Assembly: GCA_038853715.1 (NCBI GenBank)
Contig: JAWCJE010000005.1
Coordinates: forward strand, 12,241 to 76,240
Direction: 5' to 3'
From: Candidatus Nezhaarchaeales archaeon
GTDB taxonomy: Archaea > Thermoproteota > Methanomethylicia > Nezhaarchaeales > JAWCJE01
DNA length: 64,000 nucleotides
Shown: in pieces, positions 482-64,000 of the stretch
Layout: each line of letters opens with the position of its first letter
How positions within the stretch are numbered: position 1 is the stretch's first letter
Position numbers and translations under genes: made by a program
The notes under the pieces: generated by a model
Seen by the model: the letters and a program-made list of their open reading frames with translations, nothing else
What the model was told of the DNA's origin: nothing
The model's database searches: none

Positions 482-1909
482 CTATTCCAGCTTAACCTCC
501 TTGCTCCACACCTTCTCCACGAACTCAGGTATACCGGAGCAGTCCTTAGGGCCTACGAAGACCCTCCAACCCTGTAGTAGCTCTTCGAGCTCCCCGCTTA
601 TCCTAGCGGCTTTACCAGGTATTATAACAGTCCTATGCTTAACCTTCTTCTCAACGCCCGAACTCTTTAAGGCCTCCACAACCTTCTCGGCCGTAAACCT
701 CTTACCGGCTACTGATGATTCAACGCTTATACCCTCGGTATCAATAGATATTAAGTAGCCCTTACCGCTCCTTTCAACATCACCCTTAACTAGGAAGTAG
801 GTGAGGGCTCCGTTACCGGTTACGAATATCGGCGTTTTATCGTCCACCGGTCCTATTTCGTAAAGCCCCGGTTTAACCGATAAGGGCGTCCTTGGATCCG
901 TATATACGTTCTGCCTCCAAACTAGGATTGGTAGTAGGACCCATGGATCTAGGCTATGCATAATCATTAAGTCCGCGTACCTAGCTATCAATAGGTTCGC
1001 TAGGTACGACTCCCTCATCTTAACCAATACCTCATTCTTCTCAGGGTTTAACCATACGGCGGCGGGAACCGCCATAAGCGGATAGCCTAAATCCTTATCC
1101 TCCCCCTCTATGGCGGCCAGCCTCAGCATGGTGAAGGCGTTAACGGTTTCACTAAGCATATCTGCTTCCACGAAGGTCCCAGGGTCTAAAACTAGGTCGT
1201 CGAGGCCTAGCTTACGCATGGTGGCTGCTAACGACTTAAGCATCGATAGATCGCCTGGAGCCGATACGGTGAGCGGGCATTCATACTTTAAGGCTAGCTT
1301 CGACATCTTAAACCAGTTATCCTTAGTGGCAGCGTAGATTAAAGGCCTCCTCTTACCGGCCACTATTAACGCCTCCTCAATTACATCGGGATCGTAGGAG
1401 CATAGTACTAAGGGTAGGTTACTCGCCTCGCTTATCCTACTAACCATTTTAGCGAACTTATCGCGATCACCGCTCGTGCAGCGTACGGCTATCCCTTGAA
1501 GCCTTATCTTTGCGCCTATACGTTCATACTCAAAGGATTCAACAGTCTTAACCCTCTTCATTACCTCTTCGTCAGGCGCCTCGTCAGTAACATCGAAGAA
1601 TAGGGCTGTAGGTCTATACCAGGTTAGTTCATGTCTATAGACGCATACCTTCCCACCTATAGTAACCGCCCTATCACCTACCCCTATCGTAACCTCCTTA
1701 ACGGGAGGCCTAAGCACCTCCCTAAGGCCTTCAAGCTTAGCCTTATACTTAGGTTCAAAGATCGGTGGACAGTCCTCGATTTTCTTCTCACGCTCTATTA
1801 GTTTAGCGGCAAAGGCCATACAGTTAACCTCGCCGCATTTAGCGCAGTTAGTACCTGGTAGATGCTTATATACGTCTAGAGGCCTTAATATCTTGGGCGT
1901 GAGGATCAC
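482..1909 (-). CDS. cdhE: CODH/ACS gamma subunit, corrinoid iron-sulfur protein large subunit
   Basis: This 475-residue protein is the large subunit of the corrinoid iron-sulfur protein, which carries the methyl group on a cobamide between the tetrahydropterin and the acetyl-CoA synthase A-cluster. The N-terminal [4Fe-4S] domain has Cys22, Cys25, Cys30 and Cys47, in the motif TNCAKCGEVNCMAFA followed by DCPP. A TIM-barrel region follows, and the C-terminal third is the cobalamin-binding domain. The length is normal for archaeal CdhE. The start is one base past the cdhD stop, so the two are translationally close. A paralog with the same cysteine spacing lies at 56760-58112. Confidence 0.95.
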   Translation of the reverse strand: MILTPKILRPLDVYKHLPGTNCAKCGEVNCMAFAAKLIEREKKIEDCPPIFEPKYKAKLEGLREVLRPPVKEVTIGVGDRAVTIGGKVCVYRHELTWYRPTALFFDVTDEAPDEEVMKRVKTVESFEYERIGAKIRLQGIAVRCTSGDRDKFAKMVSRISEASNLPLVLCSYDPDVIEEALIVAGKRRPLIYAATKDNWFKMSKLALKYECPLTVSAPGDLSMLKSLAATMRKLGLDDLVLDPGTFVEADMLSETVNAFTMLRLAAIEGEDKDLGYPLMAVPAAVWLNPEKNEVLVKMRESYLANLLIARYADLMIMHSLDPWVLLPILVWRQNVYTDPRTPLSVKPGLYEIGPVDDKTPIFVTGNGALTYFLVKGDVERSGKGYLISIDTEGISVESSVAGKRFTAEKVVEALKSSGVEKKVKHRTVIIPGKAARISGELEELLQGWRVFVGPKDCSGIPEFVEKVWSKEVKLE

Positions 1910-1910
1910 C

Positions 1911-3128
1911 TCAAGCCTTCATCGTTACCCATTTATCATAGACGGCTTCCTTAACCAGCTTTTCGGCCTTCGGCTTTGAAAGCGCTTCAGCCAGCCTCTT
2001 CAAGGTTTTAGCCGCTACGGGGTGCATCATCATGAATAGGTCGGCGCCAGCAAGCATGTTTACTAAGCCCGTAGTTATCTCCCATAGTGGCCCGCGATAC
2101 TCTCTAGGCCCCCACTCATCAGCGGGCATCCACGCCTCCCTAGCGACCCAAGCGTTAGTAGCCGCGCAGCTTATGGGGACCTGCATCGTCTCCTCACCCA
2201 TTAAACCGGCCATCCTCATCCTCTCCATAATGCTAAAGGTATACTCAATACCGTAGCCAAGCCCACCGGTTGAAGGATCCGTAATGAGGTGGTCCTTAGG
2301 TAGCCCGCCGCTAAGTAGCTTCCTATTAAGCTCCTTAACTTGGTTTATATCGAGGAAGGCTAACGCTATCACGTTATGTCCATGCTTAGCGATCGCCTTC
2401 ACCGCCTTCTCCACGTCCATGTCGACCGTTACCGACGCTAATACAAGCCGCTCCCCCTCAGTAACTTTAGCGACCTCTTCAAACACTAACATATCCTTAT
2501 CAGGGTTGCCAGAGCCTCCAACTATTACAGGTATTTCCACCTGATCAAGCACTTTATCCACGAAGCGCGCCGCCTCATCGGCAGGCCTATTCTCCGCCGA
2601 TGGATCAGTACTCGTAAGGTGTAGCGTTACTAGGTCCGCTTCAAACTCGTCGATACATTTCCTAACCCAGGCTACGTGATCCTTAAACACGTCCTTATAG
2701 TAACTCTTAATGGTTTTAGGTAGTGGCGGAGGTGAATCAAAAACGTCGAGCGCTATAACTGGCCTATGCGGGAGTACGCCTTCGAAGTGGTAGAATGGAG
2801 GTACGGTTTCCCCACCTATCTTAATTACCTTCTTCCTAGTCCCCCCTTCACTACCGGTTGCACCTATTTGAACCACGGCTATCTTAGCAGCATATTTACC
2901 TACTGGAGGCTTAAATACCGCTTTAACCAATTCTTCAGTCGGCGGAGCCACAGCCGGTGGAGCTACGGCTGGCGGCGGGGCCGCTTGAACTATTGACGGG
3001 ACGATTTCCAAGGCTAGTTCTTCAGCTACTATATCCACGTCTTCAAGCTCAAGCTCTTTAGCCTTATCGAGAAGCGTAAAAAGCTCTTCAATACTCTTAG
3101 GAGCTCCTCCTTTACGTTCCTCAACCAT
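1911..3128 (-). CDS. cdhD: CODH/ACS delta subunit, corrinoid iron-sulfur protein small subunit
   Basis: The 405-residue protein is the CdhD partner of CdhE and forms the TIM-barrel small subunit of the corrinoid protein. The core begins near residue 75 (VGKYAAKIAVVQIG, then a GGTRKKVIKIGGE stretch). It continues through barrel signatures such as VIVGGSGNPDKD and LITDPSTGGLGYGIEYTF, and ends with a GADLFMMMHP motif. The first ~70 residues are an acidic helix plus an Ala/Pro-rich linker (repeats of VAPP), as in archaeal CdhD; the second copy at 58117-59073 lacks this extension. It sits between cdhC (10-base gap) and cdhE. Confidence 0.95.
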   Translation of the reverse strand: MVEERKGGAPKSIEELFTLLDKAKELELEDVDIVAEELALEIVPSIVQAAPPPAVAPPAVAPPTEELVKAVFKPPVGKYAAKIAVVQIGATGSEGGTRKKVIKIGGETVPPFYHFEGVLPHRPVIALDVFDSPPPLPKTIKSYYKDVFKDHVAWVRKCIDEFEADLVTLHLTSTDPSAENRPADEAARFVDKVLDQVEIPVIVGGSGNPDKDMLVFEEVAKVTEGERLVLASVTVDMDVEKAVKAIAKHGHNVIALAFLDINQVKELNRKLLSGGLPKDHLITDPSTGGLGYGIEYTFSIMERMRMAGLMGEETMQVPISCAATNAWVAREAWMPADEWGPREYRGPLWEITTGLVNMLAGADLFMMMHPVAAKTLKRLAEALSKPKAEKLVKEAVYDKWVTMKA

Positions 3129-3138
3129 GAAGTATCGC

Positions 3139-4548
3139 CTAACGCTTTATCACGATCTTATCTATGTGGATTTTAGCCCCCTTAAGCACTATTTTAAGCC
3201 CTCCACCAGCCGGTACTACGAGGGTCCCCGGAGCGCTTACCGTGGGCGTTACGGCTGGCGCTACAGCGGCTAACGGTGTAACCTCCTCAACCTTTTCAGC
3301 TGGTGGTGCAGCTGCCGCCTCTAACTCCTTTATCCTAGCCGCTAAGGGATGGCCTTTCTCAACTAGGAACTTCTTAAGTGAAGCTACGTCAGAAGCTTCC
3401 TTCTCGGTGGGTATCTTATCCTTTAACTCCTCGGGTATAGCGTCCTCAATCCTCTTCCTAAGCGTTGAACACATCCATGCTACCCTACCCCATCCTCCAT
3501 CGCCTTGGAGGAACTTAGGGCTCCGGTAATATTCTAAACCCATACCTAAGAAGCCCTCGGTTTGGATTCCACCGCCCGTTTGAGCCGCCATGGTTGCGAA
3601 GGGTAAACCGTTAACAGCCGCGCCCTTAAACCCTCGATCGACAAAGCCGAAGCCGTCTACTTCAGGGATGTAGAAGCCTATGGTCTCGAAGCATCCGCAT
3701 GAAGTATGCGGGTAGCTGAACATGCTGTATAGGTATACGCGTTTATTAGCGCCTAGGGAGCGCTCATTAACCACCTTATTAACGCCTTCATACTCACCCT
3801 TGATCGGGTCGAGCAGCTTACCTTTAGGTATCGGGAAGTTCGGCCCCTTAGGATCTACGCTCGCGGCAGCCCTAGCGTCAAACCAGTTCATGGCTCCGCA
3901 GAGGGATACCCTATTAGGCGGTATTACGCATACGTGCTGAGGAGCGAAGGATTGGCAAAGGACACATCCATAGAAGGTGTCAACATCCTCGTCCCTAAGC
4001 CCTCGAACCCTAGCGTCTCTAGCCTGATACGTTTTAAGGGCCTGATCATACCACCACTTAACCTTCTCCGGGTCCGTGTAGAACGTAACCTGAATCTTCT
4101 CGATGAAGGGCATGGCGCTCTTAAATAGCTTTATCAGTATTAAGCCCCACCATTTAAGGGTGTTGAAGCCCTTCTTGTAGCTCTTCTTACTAATCCTAAT
4201 CCAAATGTCGTAACGCTGGTTAAGATGCATTACGCCCTCAATGTAGTTTGTGAAGTCGTGGATCCTCCTCTCAATCACAGCTTCAAGGTCCTTCTCCACC
4301 TTAGCCCCGGCCACGTATATTATGTTGGCGAGCGGGTAGCTTTCACCCTCTTTAAACTCTTGTAGGTCTGGGCCTACGACCTCCACCTTACCGTCCTCTA
4401 CTTCATCCATCCCCTTAGCCAAAACCAATTCGCACTTATAGTCTATCTTAGGCCCTCCGAACTCGACGTACATATCTTCCTTTCTTATCCTTTCACCCTC
4501 GTAAACTGGCCCAACGTCAACCGGAAAACCCGCGAAGGATTTGGACAC
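3139..4548 (-). CDS. cdhC: CODH/ACS beta subunit, acetyl-CoA synthase
   Basis: This is the acetyl-CoA synthase subunit (469 residues) that condenses a methyl group from CdhDE, CO from CdhA and CoA at the nickel-containing A-cluster. The A-cluster cysteines are visible around residues 195-220 in FYGCVLCQSFAPQHVCVIPP and VSLCGAMNWFD, and again in PHTSCGCFET. The length matches archaeal CdhC, which lacks the N-terminal CODH-binding domain of bacterial AcsB. The C-terminus ends with an Ala/Pro-rich linker and a short hydrophobic, lysine-rich tail. The start is GTG. A ~150-base gap with a TATA-like box separates it from cdhB, so it may have its own promoter. Confidence 0.95.
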   Translation of the reverse strand: MSKSFAGFPVDVGPVYEGERIRKEDMYVEFGGPKIDYKCELVLAKGMDEVEDGKVEVVGPDLQEFKEGESYPLANIIYVAGAKVEKDLEAVIERRIHDFTNYIEGVMHLNQRYDIWIRISKKSYKKGFNTLKWWGLILIKLFKSAMPFIEKIQVTFYTDPEKVKWWYDQALKTYQARDARVRGLRDEDVDTFYGCVLCQSFAPQHVCVIPPNRVSLCGAMNWFDARAAASVDPKGPNFPIPKGKLLDPIKGEYEGVNKVVNERSLGANKRVYLYSMFSYPHTSCGCFETIGFYIPEVDGFGFVDRGFKGAAVNGLPFATMAAQTGGGIQTEGFLGMGLEYYRSPKFLQGDGGWGRVAWMCSTLRKRIEDAIPEELKDKIPTEKEASDVASLKKFLVEKGHPLAARIKELEAAAAPPAEKVEEVTPLAAVAPAVTPTVSAPGTLVVPAGGGLKIVLKGAKIHIDKIVIKR

Positions 4549-4591
4549 CTTAAATCGCCCCGTTAAGCTTCAAAAATAGGAAGAAGAGGCG

Positions 4592-4601
4592 AATATATAG
4601 G
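4592..4601 (-). promoter_or_regulatory. Possible TATA box upstream of cdhC
   Basis: On the minus strand a CCTATATATTC-like box lies about 45-50 bases before the GTG start of cdhC, in the 149-base gap after cdhB. This is the largest internal gap of the operon. It suggests an internal promoter for cdhC-cdhD-cdhE. Assigned by eye only. Confidence 0.35.
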
Positions 4602-4697
4602 TTTTGGATGTAGGCCGCCTTTAAACCGAGGCGTGTTAAACAGCGTGGCCTAGGGGTTGATCCGTTTAACGTTGGATGGCTAACGTAACGGTCGGCT

Positions 4698-5231
4698 CTA
4701 GATCGTTTTAAGTACCTCATTTAACGCTTCACCCCATTCCTTTTCGCTTAAGTTGTTAAAGGAGAAGGAGGCGTTCGGATGGTAAAACCTATCGAGCGAA
4801 ATGGTTATGAGGTGGGGCGCGAAGTTCTTTAGCGTTGAAAGGACTTGCGATTCAAACTGGTAGGATATACCTAAAAATATTACGTGCGTATAGGGGCCTT
4901 TACCGTCAAGGCTCCATTTAGGGTCTTGAAGCCTATTAACTACGTCGACGAGGCTCATCACTAAGACCTTATCAAACCCCTTCTCTAGGAAGGCCTTCAA
5001 GGTGTTAGACGTTGCGACTATCGGTATGCCGCGCTTCCCGAGCTCCAAGGCAAAGTCGATTAACGGTCTACCGTTAAACCTCCATTCTAGTAGCGCCCCT
5101 CCAACGATTAGTAGCGGCCGTTTAGCCGCCTTAATCATTTTACCCGCTACCTCAGGTCTAAGTACGTTGGCTGTCCTAGGCCCAGGTACGTTCCCCCACT
5201 GCCAAGGAGTTACAGCAGCCATCATAATCAC
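4698..5231 (-). CDS. cdhB: CODH/ACS epsilon subunit
   Basis: The 177-residue protein matches CdhB, the small subunit that forms the archaeal alpha2-epsilon2 CODH component. It shows the flavodoxin/transhydrogenase-like fold pattern: AKRPLLIVGGALLEW, an IPIVATSNTLKAF segment and a VIFLGISYQFESQVLSTLKNF segment. The family usually has about 165-180 residues. The GTG start at 5231 overlaps the cdhA stop by four bases (GTGA), a coupled arrangement; ATG codons at 5225 and 5222 are alternatives. Confidence 0.9.
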   Translation of the reverse strand: MIMMAAVTPWQWGNVPGPRTANVLRPEVAGKMIKAAKRPLLIVGGALLEWRFNGRPLIDFALELGKRGIPIVATSNTLKAFLEKGFDKVLVMSLVDVVNRLQDPKWSLDGKGPYTHVIFLGISYQFESQVLSTLKNFAPHLITISLDRFYHPNASFSFNNLSEKEWGEALNEVLKTI

Positions 5232-7588
5232 TTCCTAACCCTTATCAACCTCTCCAGTAGGGTTGGATCTATGGACGGTACCTCAGCCGGCTTCCAGCCC
5301 CTGCCCTTTAAGAAGTCCATCACCTCGTCCTTAAACGTTATCGGGACGTCAGCCTCAGTCCTAACGAGTAGTGGTAGATCATCCGGCAGCCTACCGTAAA
5401 GCCTCCTATAGAGGTCTATGTAGTGGGTTAGCTTTATCATCCTACCCTTAGTGGTATCGTTCGGCCTCATGCAGAGTTTAGCGGTCCAAACCATACATTC
5501 CTCCTTGGTTTCAGCTATGTAAACTAGGTGTTCAGGGGCTGGACCTATGTAGACCTTCTGACCCGTTCTAGCGTCGTAAGTCTCGAAGCTAGCCACGTCC
5601 TCAACCCTACCTAGGTAGAGGCGCCTATACTTTGATCCTTGAGGACCTATGATCACGGGTATACCTAGCCTATTATAGCCCGTCGCTATTGACGCAGCCT
5701 TCTGCGAATAGGCGCCCCAAGCTACTCCGCACGCTCCAACCCTATGAAGCACGTAGTCCGCTATCTCCTCGTAGTTCGCTCTAAGCTTACGCCTCGCGAA
5801 TATACTTGCTATCTTTATCGCCGCCCCGCTTATATGGGCGTTAGCTACGCATGAACCCACATTAACCAGCCCGCCCCTATCGAAGACCCCGGGGAAGGCC
5901 TCGTAAGGCGTTCTACCCTCCTCATCGCGGTATTCGCCTATACTCATAGCTGAACAGCCGCTAGCTACAACTATATAGCCCCGCTTAGCAAACTCGTAAG
6001 CCATCTCGCCAACGTCGCGCCCGGCGCCTGGATAATTAGCGCATCCAACGTAGGCTACGACGCCGGGTATCTCACCAAGTACGATCGGCGATCCTACCTC
6101 GCGTATTTCAGTATCAAGTATCGGCCCCCTACCAGCCCTCACCTTATACTTCTCAGTCTTAATCTTATGCTGGGCGGCCGCCTCCATTAGGCTTAGTATC
6201 GGAATCTTTTGAGGGCATTCAGATTCACATCTTAAACAGCCGAGGCAGACGTCGTGAAGATCCGCCAGCTTATCTAGAACGCCCTGTTTAGCAGCGTTTA
6301 CAGCGTCACTTACCGGTAGATCCGAAGGGCAGTTCCTACGGCACCTATGACAGTAGGTACACGGAGAAGCTAGTTCACGTACCTTCTCGACATCGGGTAT
6401 AGCCTTAAACTTCCTACGTAGGGGGGCTATCCTTATCGCCGTTAGGGCCGCTACAGCCCCCGCTTTTTCAAGGTCCAGTATTAACGCACCTTTCAACTTA
6501 CCCGTTACTAGCATATCGACTATTCTATCAACGGGCTCATCGCTTACGTCGGGGAAGCCGTAACAAACTTTTTCAGATACAGCTATAACCGGCGTATTAA
6601 CGGAGGCAGCTAAACTAGGTATATCAGTCCTTATGCACTGTTCATCAACCACCACCACGTCGGCTATACCGCTCCTTACGAACTTTGATTGGTAGGATAT
6701 GGGCCCTATGATCTTAGCCTTACTCGTATACCTCGTAATATCGTGGCTCGTGCAGCAGATACCTGCAACCTCCACGCTAGTTCCGGCTTCACCCAACCCG
6801 GCTTTACGTATGTAGTCTACGAGCTCCACCCCTGCACATACGTTATGCCCTATTAGTAGGACAACGGGCTTCGTGGTATCAGCTAGTATGCCTAGCCCGC
6901 TTTCAACTAGGGGGGCGTTAGGGTCTCCCTTCGGGAAGTTAAAGCCTACTACTTGGGCTATATCGGCCGCCTCCATGGCTACGTGGTCTATCATGCTGAC
7001 GTGTAGCGCCTTAGACTCATAATCTATATAGTCGCCCTCCTGCCCGGTATGCGTCGCAGCCAACGAATGCGTTATCTGCTCCTCGCAATAGTTTAATACG
7101 TGAGCTAGATCTCCGAGGGTCTTAGGCCGAATCCCTGTTACAAGCCTAATATGCGGGGCTTCAACCTCGATCTCGGTTCCGAGGTTTATAGGGTAATCAG
7201 GGCCATACTTTTCGAGTAGGTAATGGACTAGGTGCCTAGCGTGAGCAGTATGCGTAGAGGCCCCTATACAACACGCTATTAGAATGATTCTAGCTTGCTG
7301 CGTTCTAAGGTCTAAGCCGCAAGCGCCCTTCTTACCCCTGGTTAAGTCGCATTTACCGTAAGTGCATAGACAGCATAGGTCGCAGAAGGGCATGTAGAAG
7401 GGCGTATAACGGCTTAAAAGCTTACGATCCCAGCTTCGAAGCGTTGTAAGGCTAGGCATGGGGGTTGGGCCCATGGGTTCCCATTCTTCCTCCATGGCGA
7501 GCCTACCTATAGCGACCTCAAGGTCTTTAGCGTAAAGCGTACCTGTTCTAAGCTCCTTAACGCTAATCTTAGCAGGGCCTCTCTCCAT
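5228..7588 (-). CDS. cdhA: CODH/ACS alpha subunit, Ni-Fe-S carbon monoxide dehydrogenase
   Basis: The catalytic CODH subunit interconverts CO and CO2 at the Ni-Fe-S C-cluster and passes electrons to ferredoxin. The N-terminal cysteine motif CDLCCLCTYGKCDL plus GACGLDL holds the B- and D-type clusters. A bacterial-ferredoxin-like insert (PCTYCHRCRRNCPSD and VCLGCLRCESECPQK) marks the archaeal alpha form. C-cluster cysteines are in GICCTSHD, VGSCVANAHISG and GACGVAWG. I chose the ATG at 7588 (786 residues) over the ATG at 7606 because a GGTGAGG ribosome site lies six bases before it. It is the first cdh gene, followed by cdhB with a four-base overlap. Confidence 0.95.
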   Translation of the reverse strand: MERGPAKISVKELRTGTLYAKDLEVAIGRLAMEEEWEPMGPTPMPSLTTLRSWDRKLLSRYTPFYMPFCDLCCLCTYGKCDLTRGKKGACGLDLRTQQARIILIACCIGASTHTAHARHLVHYLLEKYGPDYPINLGTEIEVEAPHIRLVTGIRPKTLGDLAHVLNYCEEQITHSLAATHTGQEGDYIDYESKALHVSMIDHVAMEAADIAQVVGFNFPKGDPNAPLVESGLGILADTTKPVVLLIGHNVCAGVELVDYIRKAGLGEAGTSVEVAGICCTSHDITRYTSKAKIIGPISYQSKFVRSGIADVVVVDEQCIRTDIPSLAASVNTPVIAVSEKVCYGFPDVSDEPVDRIVDMLVTGKLKGALILDLEKAGAVAALTAIRIAPLRRKFKAIPDVEKVRELASPCTYCHRCRRNCPSDLPVSDAVNAAKQGVLDKLADLHDVCLGCLRCESECPQKIPILSLMEAAAQHKIKTEKYKVRAGRGPILDTEIREVGSPIVLGEIPGVVAYVGCANYPGAGRDVGEMAYEFAKRGYIVVASGCSAMSIGEYRDEEGRTPYEAFPGVFDRGGLVNVGSCVANAHISGAAIKIASIFARRKLRANYEEIADYVLHRVGACGVAWGAYSQKAASIATGYNRLGIPVIIGPQGSKYRRLYLGRVEDVASFETYDARTGQKVYIGPAPEHLVYIAETKEECMVWTAKLCMRPNDTTKGRMIKLTHYIDLYRRLYGRLPDDLPLLVRTEADVPITFKDEVMDFLKGRGWKPAEVPSIDPTLLERLIRVRK

Positions 7589-7594
7589 GGAAGG

Positions 7595-7601
7595 CCTCAC
7601 C
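7595..7601 (-). promoter_or_regulatory. Ribosome-binding site deciding the cdhA start
   Basis: GGTGAGG on the minus strand, ending six bases before the ATG at 7588. It lies inside the reading frame that would start at 7606, so it supports the downstream start. It matches the archaeal anti-Shine-Dalgarno pattern GGTGA seen at other starts in the window. Confidence 0.6.
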
Positions 7602-7657
7602 AGCATCCAAGTAGGATTTAAGCGTCCATATAAGAGTTACCTAACTGCCCTCTAAGC

Positions 7658-7671
7658 TCTATATATGAACG
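7658..7671 (-). promoter_or_regulatory. TATA-like promoter of the cdh operon
   Basis: A TTCATATATAGAGC box on the minus strand lies about 75 bases upstream of the cdhA start. A second weaker box (CTCTTATATGG) is at 7626-7636. Either could drive the cdhABCDE-cooT transcript. Assigned by eye, without mapped transcripts. Confidence 0.4.
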
Positions 7672-7727
7672 CGCTCGTTAATACGGTACGCTAGTTTAAA
7701 CGGTTTAACCGTATGAGCCTACACGGT

Positions 7728-8504
7728 TTAAAGAAGCCCTGTTAGAAGTTTTTCGCCGATCCCTCTAATAGCCTTAACCGCTACCCCTTCCACTAGTAAG
7801 GGGTTTTGCCCCGTTCTTTCAGCCTTAGCCACCCCTTCATCGTAGGGCACTAGGCCTAGTAACGGTACGCCGACGTCCTTAGCGAAGCTGGTTATCGCCT
7901 CAACGTCTCTATCCTCAACAACCTTGTTCCCGACGAGGTAGGCCTTCGGGACCTTCAAGCTTAACGTTAACCCGTAGATCTTCTTAGCTACATCCATGGA
8001 CCTAAAGCTAGGCTCAGTTACTATAAGCATATGTTCCACGTACTTCGCCGTCCCCCTACCTAGGTGTTCAACGCCAGCCTCCATATCCATAACCACAGCC
8101 TCGCTCCTATCCACGATTAAATGCCTCATTAAGGCCCTAATTAACGCGTTAGCAGGACACGTACATCCTCCACCAGCATCCTTAACGGTCCCCATCACTA
8201 GGAGGTATACGCCCGTAGGGGTTTTAACGGCGTACCTATCAACCACGTCGTCAACGCTAAAGCTAAGCCTATATACCCCCGGATACCCGGTTGAAGTCTT
8301 ACTCTCTATAAGCTCCCAGTCTTCAGATAAGGGCTTTATAGTTGAAGCTTGGCTTAAAGGCACCCCCAGCATTAAAGCTAGGTTTGGCGATGGGTCAGCG
8401 TCTACAGCTAGCACCTTAAACCCCTTCTTAACGAAGAAGCTAGCCAGAGCCGCGGCTATAAAGGTCTTCCCTACACCCCCCTTACCACTAACCGCTACCT
8501 TCAC
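7728..8504 (-). CDS. cooC: CooC-type nickel insertion ATPase
   Basis: This 258-residue MinD/ParA-type ATPase has the deviant Walker A motif KGGVGKT at residues 7-13. It also has the DADPSPNLALMLGVP segment and the CooC-specific CxC metal site in GGGCTCPANAL. CooC dimerises through that CxC motif and uses ATP hydrolysis to load nickel into CODH. It lies directly upstream of cdhA, same strand, with a 120-base gap holding the operon promoter. The length and motifs are typical, so I consider the call firm. Confidence 0.9.
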   Translation of the reverse strand: MKVAVSGKGGVGKTFIAAALASFFVKKGFKVLAVDADPSPNLALMLGVPLSQASTIKPLSEDWELIESKTSTGYPGVYRLSFSVDDVVDRYAVKTPTGVYLLVMGTVKDAGGGCTCPANALIRALMRHLIVDRSEAVVMDMEAGVEHLGRGTAKYVEHMLIVTEPSFRSMDVAKKIYGLTLSLKVPKAYLVGNKVVEDRDVEAITSFAKDVGVPLLGLVPYDEGVAKAERTGQNPLLVEGVAVKAIRGIGEKLLTGLL

Positions 8505-53445: not shown

Positions 53446-53532
53446 TTGAAGCGTAGCAAAGTGAAAATAGGACATATTAGGGGTAGGAGGAGGCCTAGGA
53501 TAGGGCATATTAGGAGTAGGGGCGTAGCTTAA
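53446..53532 (+). CDS. Basic micro-ORF overlapping a retropepsin-like gene
   Basis: A 28-codon frame from TTG encodes LKRSKVKIGHIRGRRRPRIG followed by HIRSRGVA. Its TAA overlaps the ATG of the next gene (TAATG). GGTG lies five bases before the TTG. It contains two GHIR units, matching a duplicated CATATTAGGGGTAGG-like DNA repeat. A similar VKIG-I peptide precedes the paralogous gene at 54361-54795. It could be a leader peptide or a coupled partner. Confidence 0.35.
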   Translation: MKRSKVKIGHIRGRRRPRIGHIRSRGVA

Positions 53533-54360: not shown

Positions 54361-54795
54361 CTACTCCGCCAGCCAGTAACTAGGCTTAGCCGAGGCCCTA
54401 AGCTTATCTAGGGCTTCATCCCTAAACCTCCAAAGCCCCTCCTTTAAGTCCTCGATGGCTATGCTAAGCATGCTGGCTAAGTAGTCGCTGATCAATACCT
54501 CGTATTCGTATTCGGAGATTAAAACGTTAACCCTGTAAGTCGGTGTCTCCCTATCTTCGCAGGTTAATTTAAGCTCTAACGCCTCCTCAAGGTAGTATAA
54601 CCTTCCCAGGCCTATTGGAGTTGTTCTCTCGGTTACCGAGGCCTTATCCAGCTTTAATCCTAAGGCTTTAGCTAGCGCTAAAGGTATAACTAGCTCAGGC
54701 TTATCGGCTTCGTAACCGCTAATAATTAACGCTGAGGTTTTGATCCACCCGTCTGAACCTACAGGTTTAAGCTTTACCCTCACCCTCACGACCAT
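54361..54795 (-). CDS. Second retropepsin-like aspartic protease-family protein
   Basis: The 144-residue paralog of the gene at 53532 has the same order: VRVKLKPVGSDGWIKTSALIISGYEADKPELVIPLALAKALGL, then VNVLISEYEYEVLISDYLASML and GLWRFRDE. The catalytic motif is ISGY in place of DTGA. Similarity between the two is clear at both ends. It converges on the TnpB relic and overlaps a small upstream ORF by 29 bases. Confidence 0.6.
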   Translation of the reverse strand: MVVRVRVKLKPVGSDGWIKTSALIISGYEADKPELVIPLALAKALGLKLDKASVTERTTPIGLGRLYYLEEALELKLTCEDRETPTYRVNVLISEYEYEVLISDYLASMLSIAIEDLKEGLWRFRDEALDKLRASAKPSYWLAE

Positions 54796-56002: not shown

Positions 56003-56710
56003 TTAGTCGCTTTTAACCGATAGTCCTTTACGGGCTATTAAGGCGGCCACCATATGATTCACGATGGGGAAAACAAATACCTTCTTGAAGAGCCTCCGGT
56101 ACATAGCCTTAAGGCTTGAGATCGTCGGCAGCCTCCGATAGCTCTCATATAGGGCTAAGTACTTAATGGGTCCTCCCACGTGAAGAGTGAGGGGAGCTAC
56201 GAGTAGTGGAGCTATAATTAACCAGTAAAACCCGTATAGCTTGAGGGCGATGCTTCGATCCGGCTTCATTATGTCCAACACTAGTACTTGGCCCCGCGGC
56301 TTAAGCATCCGATGCTGCTCCCTTATGGTTTCGCCTAAGTCCATGGCGTCTCGAAGTGAAAATCCACATATAACTAGGTCGAAGGCCCTAGGCTTAAAAG
56401 GCGCCCTTTCAAAGACCCCTACAACTAGCTGCCCCCCTAAGCCCTTAGCGGGTTTAACCATTTTCAACGAGTAATCCATGCATACGACTAACTCAGGGTT
56501 ACACTCCTTAATGAGCGCGGCCGTCATAGCTCCGGGCCCGCATCCTTCATCGAGAACCCTTAAACCCCGTTTAGCTACGAGTTTAACGGCGAGCTTACGC
56601 CACTTATGGGCCATGCCGAACGACATAACCCTGTTCGCTACCTCATATACTGGAAGCAGGTCTTCAAGCGCTCGCTCAACGCGTTCCCACCGCTCCTTAA
56701 GCCCGTTCAA
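56003..56710 (-). CDS. Class I SAM-dependent methyltransferase
   Basis: The 235-residue protein has the SAM-binding motif I VLDEGCGPGAMTAAL near residue 53, motif II region VVCMDYSLKMVK and a post-motif FDLVICGFSLRDAMDL, of the UbiE/MenG-like layout. A hydrophobic segment around residues 160-180 (LYGFYWLIIAPLLVAPLTL) suggests a membrane-associated lipid or quinone substrate. It lies 50 bases downstream of cdhE2. Its substrate is unknown; participation in methyl transfer to the corrinoid pair is only a positional suggestion. Confidence 0.75.
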   Translation of the reverse strand: MNGLKERWERVERALEDLLPVYEVANRVMSFGMAHKWRKLAVKLVAKRGLRVLDEGCGPGAMTAALIKECNPELVVCMDYSLKMVKPAKGLGGQLVVGVFERAPFKPRAFDLVICGFSLRDAMDLGETIREQHRMLKPRGQVLVLDIMKPDRSIALKLYGFYWLIIAPLLVAPLTLHVGGPIKYLALYESYRRLPTISSLKAMYRRLFKKVFVFPIVNHMVAALIARKGLSVKSD

Positions 56711-56759
56711 TACGCTTACACCTATCGATAGGTAACGTAAAGCCCATACGGCTTAGGTG

Positions 56760-58112
56760 CTATTGAGCCGCGTAGCTTCTTAGAAACTTGGTTAACCCGG
56801 CCGATTCCCTAGGTCCTACCACTACCTTCCATCCGGTACCTTCCTCCACCATCCCCTTAAACCTAGCCGCGATCCCGGGTATTATCAGGGTTTTACGCTT
56901 AATCCTCTCATTGAGCCCCGATGACTTAACAGCCTCGATGAAGACGTCGGCTGTAAGCTTCTTACCTCCTATCGACGTTGCTACGCTTAAACCCTCGGTA
57001 TTAACGACGAGGATCCAGCAAGGCACTCCACTCGCTCTAGCATCCTCTAGGACCGAGTGGAAGGTTAAAGCGTAGTTCGTCGTAACTAGTACCGGCGAGT
57101 TCTCATCCGGCTTATTAACCTCGTATAGCCCGGGTTTCACCTGTACAGGGCTTTGCGGATCCGTGTAAAGGTTCTGCCTAGTAACTAAAACCGGTAGTAG
57201 CCTCCAAGGCTCGGCGCTCGGAATTATGAGGAGGCTTACGTACCTAGCTACCATCGCGGCCTCAAGGATCGCGGCCTCATAAACCCCGTAGCCAGTATAG
57301 CTAGGCGAGAAAACCATTAACGGGTAGCCGAACCCCTTAACGTTAAACCTAACCGCTAAACCTCGGGCAAGCGTTAAACTACTCAAGGTTGAACGGGGGT
57401 TTCTACCCGTAAGGTCAAGTACCAGGTCCTCAAGGCCGAACTCAGCGACTCGGTTAACCACGTCGATGACGTTATCCAGGCCTTCACCCGCGATGGCTAG
57501 GGGACAGTTAAACCTAGCCGCTAACTCGACCATTTGAATGTAGTTATCGCTGTTAGCGGCGTGTATTAAAGGCCTAAGGTCTCCGCAAACTTTAAGGCCT
57601 GCTTCCAGAACCTCCGGCCTTCGACTTGAAAGCACTAACGGTAAACCTGAAAAGGAGGCTAACTCCACCGCCATACTAAAGCTTTCTGGGCTATTCGCCT
57701 CATCAATTACGGCTAACGCGTCCACCCTTAAAGGTTGGCCCATTCTTTCAATATTGAAGCTAGCTACTTGAGCGACAGCCTCTTTAAGCCTCTCTTGGCT
57801 CAGCGTATCGCTTAAGGCTACAGCTATAGCCGTAGGGCTATTAAAGCGCTTCTCATGCCTATAGAGAACTTCTTCACCGCCTATTTTAAGGGTTCTAGAC
57901 CCAACCCCTATAACGATCCTCCTTACGGGTGGAGCTAGTAGCTCCTGTAGCTTAATCCTATTCTGTGGGGTTAGCTGGGGGCATGCGTCAACCTCGGCTT
58001 CACCGGCTGAAAGCTTAATGGCAAAGGCCATACACGTTGGAACCCCGCACTTCCTACAATTAGTCTTAGGGAGTAAAGCATAGATTTGAATAGCGGGAAC
58101 CCTCCTAGCCAT
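56760..58112 (-). CDS. Second CFeSP large subunit (CdhE/AcsC paralog)
   Basis: The 450-residue protein is a full-length second copy of the corrinoid iron-sulfur protein large subunit. The [4Fe-4S] cysteines Cys19, Cys22, Cys27 and Cys44 have the same spacing as in CdhE at 482-1909, and the barrel and C-terminal cobalamin domain align throughout (YRHEKRFNSPTAIAV, LYTDPQSPVQVKPGLYEV, NTEGLSVATSIGGKKLTAD). Five bases separate it from its small-subunit partner. All expected features are intact, so it should bind a corrinoid. A CODH or ACS subunit is not near this copy. Confidence 0.9.
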   Translation of the reverse strand: MARRVPAIQIYALLPKTNCRKCGVPTCMAFAIKLSAGEAEVDACPQLTPQNRIKLQELLAPPVRRIVIGVGSRTLKIGGEEVLYRHEKRFNSPTAIAVALSDTLSQERLKEAVAQVASFNIERMGQPLRVDALAVIDEANSPESFSMAVELASFSGLPLVLSSRRPEVLEAGLKVCGDLRPLIHAANSDNYIQMVELAARFNCPLAIAGEGLDNVIDVVNRVAEFGLEDLVLDLTGRNPRSTLSSLTLARGLAVRFNVKGFGYPLMVFSPSYTGYGVYEAAILEAAMVARYVSLLIIPSAEPWRLLPVLVTRQNLYTDPQSPVQVKPGLYEVNKPDENSPVLVTTNYALTFHSVLEDARASGVPCWILVVNTEGLSVATSIGGKKLTADVFIEAVKSSGLNERIKRKTLIIPGIAARFKGMVEEGTGWKVVVGPRESAGLTKFLRSYAAQ

Positions 58113-58116
58113 ACCC

Positions 58117-59073
58117 TCACCCCCCTGAAAGCCTTCCGAGAAGGCTTTTCACTAGGCTTATCGATTGGGGATGAAGCATCAATACTATATCAGCCCCTGC
58201 TAGTATATGGTTAAAAGCGGTTACAGCTTCCCATAAGACCCCCCTAACGTTAACGGGGCCTAAAACCGGGTTCTCCGCGCAGCTCTCCTTGGCGGTCCAA
58301 GCGTTACAGGCGGCGCATAGAAGCGGCATTTGAAGCGTTTCATCTCCTTGGAGGGCTTGAAGCCTTATCCTCTCAAAGATCGTATAGGTATATTCGAAGC
58401 CCCAGCCTAAGGCGGCCGACGTCGGGTCTATGACTATCCTATCCTTAGGTACTCCCATATCGAGGAGGTTCGCATTAAGCTGCTTAGCCAGGTTGAGGTC
58501 GGTCGGAGTATAAGCTACTAAGGAGTGGCCATGTTGAAGGGCTGCCTTAGCCACCGTAGAATACTGGTCGAGTGAAGCGTAGGATAGGAGGCAGTTTTCA
58601 CCATGAGCTACCTCAGCTGCTTTAACCAATACCTCAGCATCCTCTAACGGCTTATCCGGATCTCCGGGTCCGCCTATGACTAGTGGCACCTTAACTGCTT
58701 GAAGTAGCTCTTCAACCAGCCTTACGGCTTCACTCGGGCTTCTAACACCGATGCTGGGGCTAATTAGTTGGACGTAAACGGCTTCAGCCTTCAGCTTTTC
58801 AACGCAGTACTTAGCCCACTCTACGGGGTTTTTTATGAGATCCCCATAGGCCTCCTTAACCGGCTTCGGCAGCTTAATGGGGTAATCGAAAACCATTGGC
58901 ACTAGTACCGGCGGTCTAGGGTTTTCAGATTCAAAGTCGTAGTAAGGCATGGTCGTTTCACCGCCAACTATAACCGCCTTCTCTCTACTCCCGCCTTCAG
59001 CCGGTGTATTACCGATTCTAACCTCAACGATCCTACCTATGCGCCGTTCAAGGGATTTTCTAAAGCTACTCAA
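58117..59073 (-). CDS. Second CFeSP small subunit (CdhD/AcsD paralog)
   Basis: The 318-residue protein is the paralog of CdhD at 1911-3128, with GGSREKAVIVGGE, VPLVIGGPGDPDKPLEDAEV, IVIDPTSAALGWGFEYTYTIFERIR and GADIVLMLHP. It lacks the ~75-residue N-terminal extension of the first copy and is close to the bacterial AcsD length. It is immediately upstream of the second large subunit. It may form a distinct corrinoid carrier. Confidence 0.9.
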   Translation of the reverse strand: MSSFRKSLERRIGRIVEVRIGNTPAEGGSREKAVIVGGETTMPYYDFESENPRPPVLVPMVFDYPIKLPKPVKEAYGDLIKNPVEWAKYCVEKLKAEAVYVQLISPSIGVRSPSEAVRLVEELLQAVKVPLVIGGPGDPDKPLEDAEVLVKAAEVAHGENCLLSYASLDQYSTVAKAALQHGHSLVAYTPTDLNLAKQLNANLLDMGVPKDRIVIDPTSAALGWGFEYTYTIFERIRLQALQGDETLQMPLLCAACNAWTAKESCAENPVLGPVNVRGVLWEAVTAFNHILAGADIVLMLHPQSISLVKSLLGRLSGG

Positions 59074-59264
59074 AGTAAGCCCCGCCTTTAAGCCGTAAAC
59101 GTACTATCTAATTCTTTCGCCCCTCGAAATAGTTGGTTAAGACGTAGCCCACTCCATGATCCGATCGCTTATCGAAAAGCTAAGCCTTAAGTTACGGCTT
59201 TAAAACCTCCTCCTTAACGTTCTAAATACTCCTTCGGGTGGTAAGCCTGTTTAAGGTGTTAACG

Positions 59265-61001
59265 TTAACCCCAACGCTTCCTCCTATACTCCATAATCAT
59301 CTGGTTTACTACCTCCCTACTTAAAACCCCGTTAGAGGTAGGTACCTCGAAGAACCTATTCGGTATTTTCAGCGTTTCGAAGCTAAACCCCTCCCTAAAC
59401 TTAAACCGGTAGGCGTTCATAAATATCTCAGAGCCCAGCCTATAGAGTTCCTCCTCACTTCTTTCGATGCCTACGGTTTTTAGGGCTTCAACCGTTAAAG
59501 ACGGCGTATACACACCTCTCGAGAATAGGCATATAACCATGCTTGTCTGGACGAAGCGCCAATCCTCCTCCTTAATCAACTCGTCAACGATTTGGCTCGG
59601 CGTTAAAGGCTTCCTAAGGGCTTTCTGATCTATCGAGTAGCCAGCGTTACTATTATGGGAATGCCTAGCTGCTACAGCGGTTCCAACTATTGAAGCGTAA
59701 CCGGTAAAGTAGCCAGCCAACCCGTTACCGGCTATAGTAGTAGCGTAGTCAAACCCTCCGTACGCTTCAGCCATGGGATTAACGCCTTGAGCCATTAAGG
59801 CGTAGAACTCATTAGGCGTTTTAAGCAGGTTATCAAGCACCTTTAAGTAGGTTTCAGTATCACCCCACCTCGGCTTAAGCCCTAACGTCTCCTTATCGCT
59901 TATTAAGCCCTTCTCGTAGGCCTCTGTTAACCATCCTAATGCGTTGCCTACCAGCATGGTGTCGACGCCGATCATGTTCGCCTTATATATAAGCCTTAAA
60001 ACTTCGGGAGCGCTTTTAATGCCTAGGTTGCTGCCGAGGGCATATATGGACTCGTAGTTATAGTAGATATCGATCGGTTCATATTCGTAGCCGGGTGCGA
60101 AGGCAGGTTTAAGCTTAGCTACGTGGAGGCATCCTAGAGGGCAACCAGCGCATGACACCTTCCTCTCCAAGTACTTTTCTCCGATAAGCTCGCCACTTAT
60201 CTCCTCAGCGTACTCAAACCATCCCTGCTGAAAGTTCCTAGTGGGTAAGGCCTTAATAGCGTTTAACGTTAAAACGTTAACGGGCGTACCCACGTAGTGG
60301 TACTTCGACATCTTATCGGTTTTAAGCACCTCATCGTACACCTTATCGAAGAGCTTCCTATGCGCGTCGGGGTTAACGGCTTTAACCTCGCCGCTGCCGC
60401 GGATAACAATAGCCTTAAGGTTTTTAGCTCCGAAAATCGCGCCTAACCCAAGCCTACCGAAGTAGTTGTAGCGGTCAACGTTAACGCTAGCGTAAAACAC
60501 CATCCTCTCCCCGGCCGGGCCAATACTTACAATGCTTTCAACGCCGGGGCCTTCAAGGCGGCGTAACTCCCTCTCAACTTCCAAGGACGATAACCCTTTA
60601 AGTGGTTCCGCACCGCGGAAGGTAACGCCCTCATCGTCGACGAAGAGGCATACGAGCCTCTCCGAAAACCCCTTAATAACAAGGGCCCCGTAACCAGCCA
60701 TCCTTAAGGCGAAGCTAAGCCTCCCTCCAGCGTGGCTTTCACCGTAGCTACCGGTGATCGGCGATTTAAAGTTAGCCACGGTTTTCGAAGCGCAAGGATA
60801 TAGGCAGTTAAGCGGTCCAACACTTAATATCACCGGGTTCTCAGGGGCGAAGGGGTCAACGCCTTGAGGGCACTCATCTAAGAGTAGCTTAGACCCAACA
60901 CCACTACCACCTAAATACTTATCGAAGAGGTCGAAGCGTTCAACCACTTCAAACTTACGCTCCGTCAAATCAACGTATAGGACCTTACCAAGCGTCATCA
61001 T
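59265..61001 (-). CDS. Second aldehyde:ferredoxin oxidoreductase family enzyme
   Basis: The 578-residue protein has the AOR plan: KVLYVDLTERKFEVVE, YLGGSGVGSKLLLDECPQG, SVGPLNCLYPCASKTV, and the [4Fe-4S] motif CAGCPLGCLHVAK with a distal Cys in SMVICLFSRG. It is about 50 residues shorter than the AOR at 34827 and belongs to a different subgroup. It lies 190 bases upstream of cdhD2 on the same strand; that gap may hold a promoter, so co-transcription is uncertain. The substrate is not deducible. Confidence 0.88.
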   Translation of the reverse strand: MMTLGKVLYVDLTERKFEVVERFDLFDKYLGGSGVGSKLLLDECPQGVDPFAPENPVILSVGPLNCLYPCASKTVANFKSPITGSYGESHAGGRLSFALRMAGYGALVIKGFSERLVCLFVDDEGVTFRGAEPLKGLSSLEVERELRRLEGPGVESIVSIGPAGERMVFYASVNVDRYNYFGRLGLGAIFGAKNLKAIVIRGSGEVKAVNPDAHRKLFDKVYDEVLKTDKMSKYHYVGTPVNVLTLNAIKALPTRNFQQGWFEYAEEISGELIGEKYLERKVSCAGCPLGCLHVAKLKPAFAPGYEYEPIDIYYNYESIYALGSNLGIKSAPEVLRLIYKANMIGVDTMLVGNALGWLTEAYEKGLISDKETLGLKPRWGDTETYLKVLDNLLKTPNEFYALMAQGVNPMAEAYGGFDYATTIAGNGLAGYFTGYASIVGTAVAARHSHNSNAGYSIDQKALRKPLTPSQIVDELIKEEDWRFVQTSMVICLFSRGVYTPSLTVEALKTVGIERSEEELYRLGSEIFMNAYRFKFREGFSFETLKIPNRFFEVPTSNGVLSREVVNQMIMEYRRKRWG

Positions 61002-61513: not shown

Positions 61514-61939
61514 GTGTATATGCTTGATGAGAAGGAATACGAAAAGTGGTTTAATACCGGTAGAAGGAACGTGTCTTCCGCCAGGGAAGACCTCGGTAGA
61601 GGGGATTATAGCTGGGCTTGCTTTAAGGCTCAGCAAGCAGCCGAAGTAGCCGTAAAGGCATTACTCCACGGGCTAGGTTTACCGGCCTACGGTCATAGCA
61701 TCTCGAGGCTCCTTAAAGGGTTGGAGGCTAAAGGCGTTAAGATAGACGACGATTTAATGTATTCCGCTAAATCCCTTGATAAGCTCTACGTACCAACTAG
61801 GTATCCGAACGCCTGGGCTGAAGGAACACCCTACGACTACTACACTAAGAAGGATGCGGAAAACGCTATTAACGACGCGGAGAAGATTCTTCAATGGGTT
61901 GAAGATATGTGGAGATACTTAAAGAGAGGGAAAGGTTAA
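61514..61939 (+). CDS. HEPN-domain protein of a HEPN/MNT pair
   Basis: The 141-residue protein is a COG2250-type HEPN: WFNTGRRNVSSAREDLGRGDYSWACFKAQQAAEVAVKALLHGLG, GHSISRLL and LDKLYVPTRYPNAW. The R-x4-6-H RNase motif is not evident, so it may not be an RNase toxin. It overlaps the nucleotidyltransferase gene by 31 bases, the classic toxin-antitoxin-like arrangement. GTG at 61514 or ATG at 61520 may be the start. Confidence 0.85.
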   Translation: MYMLDEKEYEKWFNTGRRNVSSAREDLGRGDYSWACFKAQQAAEVAVKALLHGLGLPAYGHSISRLLKGLEAKGVKIDDDLMYSAKSLDKLYVPTRYPNAWAEGTPYDYYTKKDAENAINDAEKILQWVEDMWRYLKRGKG

Positions 61940-62289
61940 GGAAGGAGGCCATTAAAGAAGCTAGAGAATGGGTTAAAAGGTTAAACTTTAAGGTTACAGC
62001 CGTACTAATCGGATCGTACGCTAGAGGCGACTTCAATAAGTGGAGCGATGTAGATGTCCTACTAATAGCTGACTTTAAGGGTAATCCAATTGAGAGGCTT
62101 AAAACGCTGAACGCTCCGCCCGGATTCGAAGCGATACCGTTAACCCCAAAGGAATTTAGTAGTATGCTTTCAAGGAAGAATCCTTTAGCGGTTGAAGCGG
62201 TTAGCAGGGGCATCGTATTAAGAAACGACTTAGAGCTCATCTTACGCCATCCGAAACCTGGTACCGCTGAAGCTAAAGTGAAGGGGTAA
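61909..62289 (+). CDS. MNT-type minimal nucleotidyltransferase
   Basis: The 126-residue protein has the catalytic pattern LIGSYARGDFNKWSDVDVLL (GS-x-A-R-G ... S-D-x-D) typical of the MNT antitoxin family, with PLTPKEFSSML and NPLAVEAVSRGIVL. MNT proteins can nucleotidylate HEPN partners. It starts within the HEPN gene. A degraded second pair follows at 62382-63161. Confidence 0.87.
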   Translation: MEILKERERLRKEAIKEAREWVKRLNFKVTAVLIGSYARGDFNKWSDVDVLLIADFKGNPIERLKTLNAPPGFEAIPLTPKEFSSMLSRKNPLAVEAVSRGIVLRNDLELILRHPKPGTAEAKVKG

Positions 62290-62381: not shown

Positions 62382-62796
62382 GTGGAGGCCGTTGAAGAGG
62401 CTAAGAGGTGGTTTAAACAGAGCCTAAGAGATCTAAAGGCCTCTAAGACAGCCTACTAAATGGAAACTATGAACGGTCATGTTTTTCAGGCTTACCAATC
62501 GGCCGAGAAAGCCCTTAAGGCCCTTCTATACGCATACGGTGTAAGCGCGTGGGGACATAGTGTCCACGAACTACTAGATAGCGCGCGGAGGGTTGAAGAG
62601 GATAGCGAGGATTTTATACGTAATGGCCCGTGAACTCGATAGGCACTACGTGCCGTCGAGGTACCCAAACGCCTTCGAATCAGGGTACCCGGGGATGTAC
62701 TACGATGAGCCAACAGCTACGAGAGTTATACGCTCCGCCGAGGTGATCGTTGAAGGGGTACGGGTGAAGCTCGCGAAGCTTGGCGTAAAACCGTAG
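62382..62796 (+). pseudogene. Broken HEPN gene
   Basis: From GTG at 62382 the frame reads EAVEEAKRWFKQSLRDLKAS, then TAA at 62457. It continues with VFQAYQSAEKALKALLYAYG and GHSVHELLDSARRVEEDSE until TGA at 62631. The match resumes in another frame as ARELDRHYVPSRYPNAFESG. Thus there is one nonsense codon and one frameshift near 62620 relative to the intact HEPN at 61514. Confidence 0.8.
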
Positions 62797-63161: not shown

Positions 63162-63326
63162 AGCTAACGTCTCACTAACTAGAACGTGAGGGTAGCCTTA
63201 TAGTTCAGGGTCAACCTAACGTCGTAGTGACGGTTTTTAAGCCCGTTTAACGTAGATGGGTTACTGGCTTGGCGAAGCTCTTATAAGAGTATGTTCATCT
63301 TCTTAGTTTTAAGTGGTGACGTGTTT

Positions 63327-64000
63327 ATGTGGGTTGAAACGTGGTTTACGTTAAATGAAGCCTTATACGCGTTAATCCTATGCGTATGGGTGTTTATAGT
63401 GGTTCGGGTGATATCTAAAGCGGTTTACGAGGTTGCTAAGGGTAGGCGGGGTGAAGGGTCGGGGCATTACGTTGGCGTCTACTTCGCTAGGAAGGTTATT
63501 CATATACTGGCTGGGGGGCTTGTAGCGCTCGTAATACCGATGTTCAACCTGTTTAAAACCCCGTTACTTCCCTTAGCTTTGGGGATGGCGTTCGCTGTTT
63601 TCACCTATCTACCGCATAGAACCGGGAAGCTAATGTACTGGTTTCAAGACCCAGGGAATATCTACGAGGTGGACTTCTGCATCGTATGGGCCTTAACGAT
63701 GAGTTTAGGGTGGTTTCTAGGTGGAGGGAACTTCTGGTTCGGGGTAATCCCCGTTTCGTTTATGGCGTTTGGTGACGGAGTAACCGGGATCGTTAGGAAC
63801 TTCATATTTAAGAGGAGGACTAAGCATTGGAGCGGGAACGTAGCCATGTTCCTATTCTGCGCACCCCTCGGATACCTTTTAGGAAGCAACCTAGGGCCTT
63901 TTGGAGGGTTAATCTGCGTAGCGGCGGCCCTCGTAGCAAGCATAGTGGAACACGTAGAAAGGATCGGCAACTATGTGATAGACGATAACATAACGGTTCC
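63327..64000 (+). CDS. Dolichol/phytol kinase-like CTP-dependent membrane kinase, truncated by the window edge
   Basis: The frame is open from ATG 63327 to the end of the window (224 codons, no stop). It encodes a multi-helix membrane protein: YALILCVWVFIVVRVI, RKVIHILAGGLVALVI, LPLALGMAFAVFTYLPH, FCIVWALTMSLGWFLGG, and MAFGDGVTGIVRNFIFKRRT with HWSGNVAMF. The GDG-x-x-G-x-x-R...K...G pattern is that of the SEC59/DGK1 polyprenol or diacylglycerol kinase group. GGTGA lies seven bases before the ATG. It may phosphorylate a polyprenol lipid. Confidence 0.65.
   Translation, partial: MWVETWFTLNEALYALILCVWVFIVVRVISKAVYEVAKGRRGEGSGHYVGVYFARKVIHILAGGLVALVIPMFNLFKTPLLPLALGMAFAVFTYLPHRTGKLMYWFQDPGNIYEVDFCIVWALTMSLGWFLGGGNFWFGVIPVSFMAFGDGVTGIVRNFIFKRRTKHWSGNVAMFLFCAPLGYLLGSNLGPFGGLICVAAALVASIVEHVERIGNYVIDDNITV

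Follow-up and report, generated by a model that had tools for sequence, protein, structure and literature searches.

Why would an archaeon with a complete operon for carbon monoxide dehydrogenase/acetyl-CoA synthase (CODH/ACS) encode a second corrinoid iron-sulfur protein (CoFeSP) elsewhere? CoFeSP is one of the central methyl carriers of the oldest known carbon-fixation pathway and is normally discussed only within CODH/ACS. The question is raised by a 64,000-nucleotide stretch from a Candidatus Nezhaarchaeales archaeon (contig JAWCJE010000005.1; hereafter the window), in which genes for a second small and large CoFeSP subunit, CdhD2 and CdhE2 (together CdhDE2, or pair 2), lie between an aldehyde:ferredoxin oxidoreductase (AOR) and a methyltransferase. 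An original prediction, made by reading the sequence, had described these four genes on the minus strand, and the open reading frames (ORFs) and Pfam domains bear it out. They are listed here with the first operon, which served as the reference.

59265..61001, minus strand: AOR family protein of 578 aa (ORF; Pfam AFOR_N and AFOR_C, both <1e-62)
58117..59073, minus strand: CdhD2, small (delta) subunit of the second CoFeSP, 318 aa (PF03599, 1.6e-53)
56760..58112, minus strand: CdhE2, large (gamma) subunit, 450 aa (iron-sulfur domain PF04060, 4e-14; PF03599, 2.5e-93)
56003..56710, minus strand: UbiE/MenG-like class I methyltransferase dependent on S-adenosylmethionine (SAM) (Pfam UbiE/Methyltransf_11)
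482..8504, minus strand: canonical CODH/ACS operon CooC-CdhA-CdhB-CdhC-CdhD1-CdhE1

Sequence and predicted fold together identify CdhDE2 as an intact, divergent CoFeSP pair, and its association with one subclade of AORs is real and recurring.

An intact, divergent CoFeSP pair apart from CODH/ACS

The four genes are transcribed in the order AOR-CdhD2-CdhE2-methyltransferase, with gaps of 191, 4 and 49 bp, and TTG is the start codon of both CdhD2 and the methyltransferase. Neither the ORFs nor Pfam placed a CODH/ACS gene at 51-64 kb of the window, which agrees with the description of a complete second pair standing apart from that operon. The operon at 482-8504 is complete and contains the sole ACS of the genome. 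Only four genes in the whole genome carry PF03599; they are exactly the two CdhDE pairs, both inside the window. Genome-wide statements here and below are based on family searches of an assembly of 1.55 Mb in 30 contigs that is about 95% complete.

CdhE2 consists of a [4Fe-4S] domain, a TIM barrel and a C-terminal cobalamin domain. Its cluster cysteines (19, 22, 27 and 44) and those of CdhE1 (22, 25, 30 and 47) have the same spacing, C-x2-C-x4-C-x16-C, as had been predicted. Thr344, Thr350, Val377 and Thr379 of CdhE2 correspond to Thr339, Thr345, Val372 and Thr374 of CfsA, so that CdhE2 retains the contacts to cobalamin known from the CfsA/HgcA fold and the predicted integrity of the cobalamin domain is upheld; the corrinoid-touching residues of CfsA and HgcA were taken from PMC7305189 and PMC4934906. 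CdhD2, encoded four bases upstream of CdhE2, is the small TIM-barrel partner subunit and aligns along 4DJD_D. Each subunit is 40% identical to its counterpart in the first pair. In CdhD1 (405 aa), an N-terminal extension of ~70-90 residues, which includes an Ala/Pro-rich linker, precedes the part shared with CdhD2; the alignment begins at CdhD1 residue 72, and CdhD2 begins at the start of the barrel.

Among solved structures, CdhE2 and CdhD2 match best the subunits of the bacterial CoFeSP 4DJD (355 and 235 bits, respectively). An AlphaFold model of CdhE2 (mean pLDDT 82, pTM 0.72) has 4C1N, 2YCL, 4DJD and 9FZY as its top structure matches, with low global TM-scores of 0.53-0.56 and root-mean-square deviations of 13-16. 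Domain orientation, which is mobile in the CoFeSP large subunit, may account for these low scores in the model, and the structure match is therefore read as a match of domains. The base composition of the pair 2 region is the same as in the rest of the window.

Trees were calculated for CdhE alone and for joined CdhD and CdhE (42 pairs). CdhDE1 falls inside the canonical archaeal CdhDE clade, in line with the claim that the first operon already encodes a normal pair. Pair 2 falls outside that clade (support 99/98 in the joined tree and 100/98 for CdhE alone), and likewise outside the bacterial clade, which has 100/100 support without pair 2 in the joined tree. Its position among the deep branches, which include L060 and other second pairs, is not settled by the trees. 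The window genome is the only one of 40 in its class with two CdhDE pairs. Judged by sequence, pair 2 either is a paralogue of long standing or was acquired long ago from a different archaeal lineage. A recent duplication is ruled out by the 40% identity and by the placement outside the canonical clade; of the scenario that had been named as fatal to the original prediction, recent duplicates under relaxed selection, the phylogeny excludes the recent duplication. Transfer from bacteria is unsupported, since pair 2 lies outside the bacterial clade and its base composition is not unusual.

The residue under the cobalt (CfsA Thr374) varies among CdhE proteins. It is Thr in 55 of 58 bacterial-type copies and Ser in 58 of 74 canonical archaeal copies; among the second copies it is Thr (window and L088), Cys (f16), Asn (f26 and f50) or Ser (f21 and L060). 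This variety fits a divergent tuning of second copies and proves nothing. Cys, which is the cobalt-binding Cys93 of HgcA, occupies the position in the second CdhE proteins at L061:11489-12865, L062:7841-9166 and L063:9620-11002, and also in two canonical archaeal CdhE proteins (L053 and L149).

The AOR subclade and the genes around second pairs

The window AOR and six AORs from other archaea (L061, L062, L063, L067, L068 and L088), to which it is 50-58% identical, form one clade with 100/100 support on a branch of 0.41, equivalent to one change on the tree. Outside it fall the nearest remaining AORs, among them those from the same order and a further paralogue in this genome (L163). Every one of the seven clade members has a second CdhDE pair close by or elsewhere in its Cdh cluster: the AOR adjoins the second pair in L061, L062 and L063, is about 3 kb from it in L088, and in L067 and L068 adjoins CdhE1 within a cluster that also holds the second pair. 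Since the same subclade recurs beside second pairs elsewhere, the neighbourhood of AOR and corrinoid carrier, an arrangement that the original prediction did not recognise, is not a coincidence.

Among 398 genomes of the phylum, AORs of this family are present in 80, two CdhE genes in nine and the clade AOR in six, all six being among those nine (Fisher 1.6e-11, with no correction for kinship). Gene surroundings were read in the nine genomes and in one further genome, L088. When coordinate tables were compared, about 81 further AOR loci of the family had no CdhE on their contig at a distance of up to 70 kb, as far as contig ends allow. A profile search of the seven-genome class of f16 and f21 found the clade AOR together with two pairs in five genomes; G081, with one pair, and G046, with none, are both without the clade AOR. 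Within the clade, the window AOR groups with the f21 AORs as their sister (100/99), a placement suggesting that the AOR gene passed from one lineage to another and once more came to lie beside a second CdhDE pair. We found no description of an AOR-CdhDE arrangement in the openly available literature. The recurrence suggests an undescribed one-carbon module.

All seven clade AORs retain the four cysteines of the [4Fe-4S] cluster, and also the residues that match Glu313 and His448 of Pyrococcus. Compared with 21 sister AORs, the clade has Ser for Asp at the second position past the catalytic His and Asn or Phe for Arg at Pf 182, as well as Met->Asn (Pf 321), Glu->Gly (Pf 423) and Leu->Phe (Pf 261). 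These changes near the active site suggest an altered substrate pocket rather than lost function. Tungsten in the window AOR would be expected from its family. In the relatives, a gene for a multi-cluster ferredoxin-like protein of 135-144 aa precedes the AOR. The orthologue in the window genome (61% identical to that of L067) lies at 64153-64566, 153 bp past the window end and on the AOR strand, and is separated from the AOR by other ORFs and the following genes:

61514..61939, plus strand: HEPN protein, between the AOR and the ferredoxin gene
61909..62289, plus strand: MNT nucleotidyltransferase, partner of the HEPN gene
63291..63998, plus strand: uncharacterised membrane-protein-like protein of 252 aa, continuing beyond the window end

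Orthologues of the last protein occur beside the AOR and ferredoxin genes in L067 and L068 (49-51% identity). A possible HEPN fragment follows the HEPN-MNT pair (61514-62289) at 62593-62796. Further on, at window coordinates of about 64859-68258 (L070:11100-14499), are GlyA, MtrH and MtrA, in a genome without McrA. For non-methanogens, it has been proposed that MtrA/MtrH funnel methyl groups into the pathway that CoFeSP serves (PMC9635834).

The exact four-gene order, whose conservation in relatives had been proposed, was found nowhere else, since the methyltransferase belongs to this genome alone. The outline of the earlier interpretation, a divergent pair with a link to an AOR, is retained, and its four-gene form is not. 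No methyltransferase homologue in the class exceeds 33% identity over most of its length, and none of the other second-pair loci has a counterpart, which rules out a conserved role of the methyltransferase with CdhDE2.

Other genes accompany second pairs elsewhere. In 'Thermoproteota archaeon INS_M20_B145' (L088:14015-19083), an operon of ferredoxin, AOR, CooC, a corrinoid protein and MtmB adjoins the second pair; the MtmB homologue is probably not pyrrolysine-dependent, since it has no in-frame TAG. At L067:15602-17674 and L068:2390-4468, an AcsB-like ACS is followed by a very divergent second CdhDE pair. These AcsB-like proteins keep the cluster cysteines, but STLS/STFS replaces the TSCGC stretch; with the CGC nickel-binding motif missing, they are probably not acetyl-CoA synthases. 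The sole CdhDE pair of L060 adjoins an intact AcsB-type ACS. The f26 second pairs (L064 and L065) are flanked by a CooC-like gene on one side and ABC-transporter genes on the other, with purF/purD nearby and no AOR. A CooC-like ATPase is found near several second pairs but not near that of the window, and was dismissed as a universal partner.

Two other features of the window were noted. A second PurF (40056-41399) stands in tandem with the first (38630-40054) and reads MGGVIG where the first copy has KCGVIG; its glutaminase half is probably dead because the N-terminal catalytic Cys is missing. Two similar small ORFs in opposite orientation, at 53532-53951 (139 aa) and 54361-54795 (144 aa), have no Pfam match and resemble retropepsin-type aspartyl-protease folds, by eye only.

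Candidate functions of the second pair

Several known destinations of corrinoid-bound methyl groups are missing from this genome (about 95% complete). It has no methionine synthase, neither MetE/Mes-type nor MetH-type (PF01717 and PF02574); feeding such an enzyme is the best-known other use of CoFeSP, and CdhDE2 would find no acceptor of that kind here. It has no MtxC-type corrinoid protein (PF02607), and a methylotrophic MtxC system was rejected. McrA, present in many genomes of the class, is absent from this one, and methanogenesis was likewise rejected. The way in which Mcr and CODH are spread over the class would agree with Methanomethylicia as GTDB widely defines it. A function like that of HgcA was set aside because CdhE2 has Thr379, not Cys, at the position of HgcA Cys93 and no membrane domain. 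With one ACS and none of these proteins, the remaining known partners are CdhC together with methyl-pterin, MtrA/MtrH or SAM.

The reading that we tentatively prefer is that CdhDE2 forms an accessory methyl-carrier module, coupled to the specialised AOR and ferredoxin, which trades methyl groups with the single ACS through non-canonical partners. CdhD2 and CdhE2 would then be a functional accessory CoFeSP whose ancient lineage is distinct from that of the canonical archaeal pair. A base-off corrinoid would be held between the C-terminal domain of CdhE2 and the barrel of CdhD2, and the [4Fe-4S] domain would keep the cobalt reducible to Co(I). The pair could work as a unit with the dedicated AOR subclade, to which it is linked in the genomes, and with the multi-cluster ferredoxin subunit. 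Most likely, the one-carbon pool served by CdhDE2 would pass low-potential electrons to AOR and ferredoxin or take them up from these. CdhDE2 itself would move methyl groups between CdhC and a donor or acceptor other than that of the canonical pair; candidates are methyl-pterin directly, the MtrA/MtrH proteins encoded at a distance of about 9 kb, or SAM by way of the adjacent methyltransferase. We infer, as the original prediction did, a separate methyl-transfer reaction for pair 2. The swapping of partners at other second-pair loci (the MtmB operon of L088, the altered ACS of L067 and L068) would count in favour of such an accessory module.

Several observations weigh against it. Only about two independent lineages link AOR and second pair, since f16 and f21, and probably L088 too, are related. 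The trees neither demonstrate nor reject a single clade uniting the second pairs of the window, f16 and L088 (p-AU 0.065 and 0.111). The window AOR has its closest relatives among the f21 AORs, but the f21 pair is not the closest one to the window CdhDE2; with different nearest relatives, joint inheritance of the two is not demonstrated. The f26 and f50 second pairs (L064, L065 and L066) are without the clade AOR. Finally, co-transcription of the window AOR with CdhD2 is not certain, as they are 191 bp apart.

The strongest alternative, less probable than the accessory module yet a real contender, is a plain isozyme: CdhDE2 would serve the same reaction from methyl-pterin to CdhC as CdhDE1, perhaps under other growth conditions, and the AOR would have a role of its own. 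The presence of only one ACS, the retention of every cobalamin and iron-sulfur residue in CdhDE2 and the f16 second pair, which shares an operon with the first pair, all agree with this. Set against it are the restriction of a second pair to one genome in 40 of the class, the large divergence (40% identity) and the absence from CdhD2 of the extension found in CdhD1, and the association with the AOR clade would need a separate explanation.

It is unlikely that AOR and ferredoxin act as a redox module of acetogenesis, reducing acetate made by CODH/ACS to acetaldehyde or oxidising aldehydes for ferredoxin, with CdhDE2 present only through the common theme of acetyl-CoA metabolism. Acetate reduction by an AOR is established in a CO-using acetogen (PMC12727526), the AOR clade retains its catalytic residues, and the f21 AOR adjoins CdhE1, not CdhE2. 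Yet the clade AOR follows second CdhDE pairs in the sample, most genomes with CODH/ACS are without it, and this genome encodes a further AOR of that family at a different place (L163).

We regard as improbable a more direct variant of the AOR link, in which the subclade, as a dedicated partner, would work directly on the one-carbon unit that CdhDE2 hands over or takes up. This would amount to a tungsten-dependent archaeal route at the methyl or formyl level that leaves the canonical carbonyl branch or goes around it, and into which interchangeable enzymes would bring methyl groups (of the MtmB type in L088, the altered ACS in f21, perhaps SAM here).

Less probable still is that the UbiE-like methyltransferase methylates the cobalt of CdhE2 from SAM, or takes part in an HgcA-like methylation that uses CdhE2. 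It is encoded on the same strand 49 bp downstream of CdhE2 and weakly resembles the corrinoid-protein-associated methyltransferase CpaM (NF043040, 54.5 bits against a cut-off of 180), and SAM is the methyl donor for HgcAB (PMC11588087). It is closer to quinone methyltransferases, however, and missing from all other second-pair loci; HgcA takes SAM itself, and CdhE2 has Thr, not Cys, under the cobalt. A decaying relic or chance neighbourhood with no present function, suggested by the lack of a second pair in other genomes of the class and by the unique four-gene order, is the least credible reading in view of the intact ORFs, the presence of all key residues, the ordinary base composition and the recurrence of the AOR link elsewhere.

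If the accessory-module reading is true, a deep-branching, intact pair outside CODH/ACS and tied to an AOR subclade would show that archaea use this carrier modularly, with other partners. The locus provides defined genes for asking two things: does a dedicated CoFeSP bring methyl groups from other donors into the pathway, and does an AOR couple to corrinoid chemistry?

Comparison with known systems

The MesB/MesC system, in which CoFeSP is a methyl donor to core methionine synthases (PMC7857596), resembles the case at hand in using CoFeSP outside acetyl-CoA synthesis and differs by its PF01717/PF02574 proteins, of which there are none here. HgcA has a cobalamin domain homologous to that of CdhE2 (NF040863, 86.6 bits against a cut-off of 275; HgcAB model 9a0b), but CdhE2 stays below the family cut-offs and has neither a transmembrane part nor a Cys at the HgcA Cys93 position.

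Closer likenesses are found among CoFeSP proteins. Pair 2 shares its domains, iron-sulfur spacing and cobalamin contacts with canonical archaeal CdhD/CdhE, the delta and gamma subunits of the ACDS complex (PRK04165 and PRK04452), and CdhE2 scores 520 bits against a family cut-off of 306. It differs by its place outside that clade, by the absence of CODH/ACS genes beside it, by the missing N-terminal extension of CdhD2, and by Thr under the cobalt in place of the usual archaeal Ser. Bacterial AcsC/AcsD (PDB 4DJD, 2H9A and 4C1N) are the best solved relatives and agree in subunit lengths and in the Thr at the CfsA Thr374 position, but pair 2 lies outside the bacterial clade and adjoins no bacterial acs genes. 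The window AOR belongs to a Thermoproteota family of AORs with a small ferredoxin-like subunit and shares the ferredoxin-type partner. Within this family, it stands out by a ferredoxin gene split from the AOR, by altered residues beside the catalytic His, and by membership in a subclade of its own that is tied to second CdhDE pairs.

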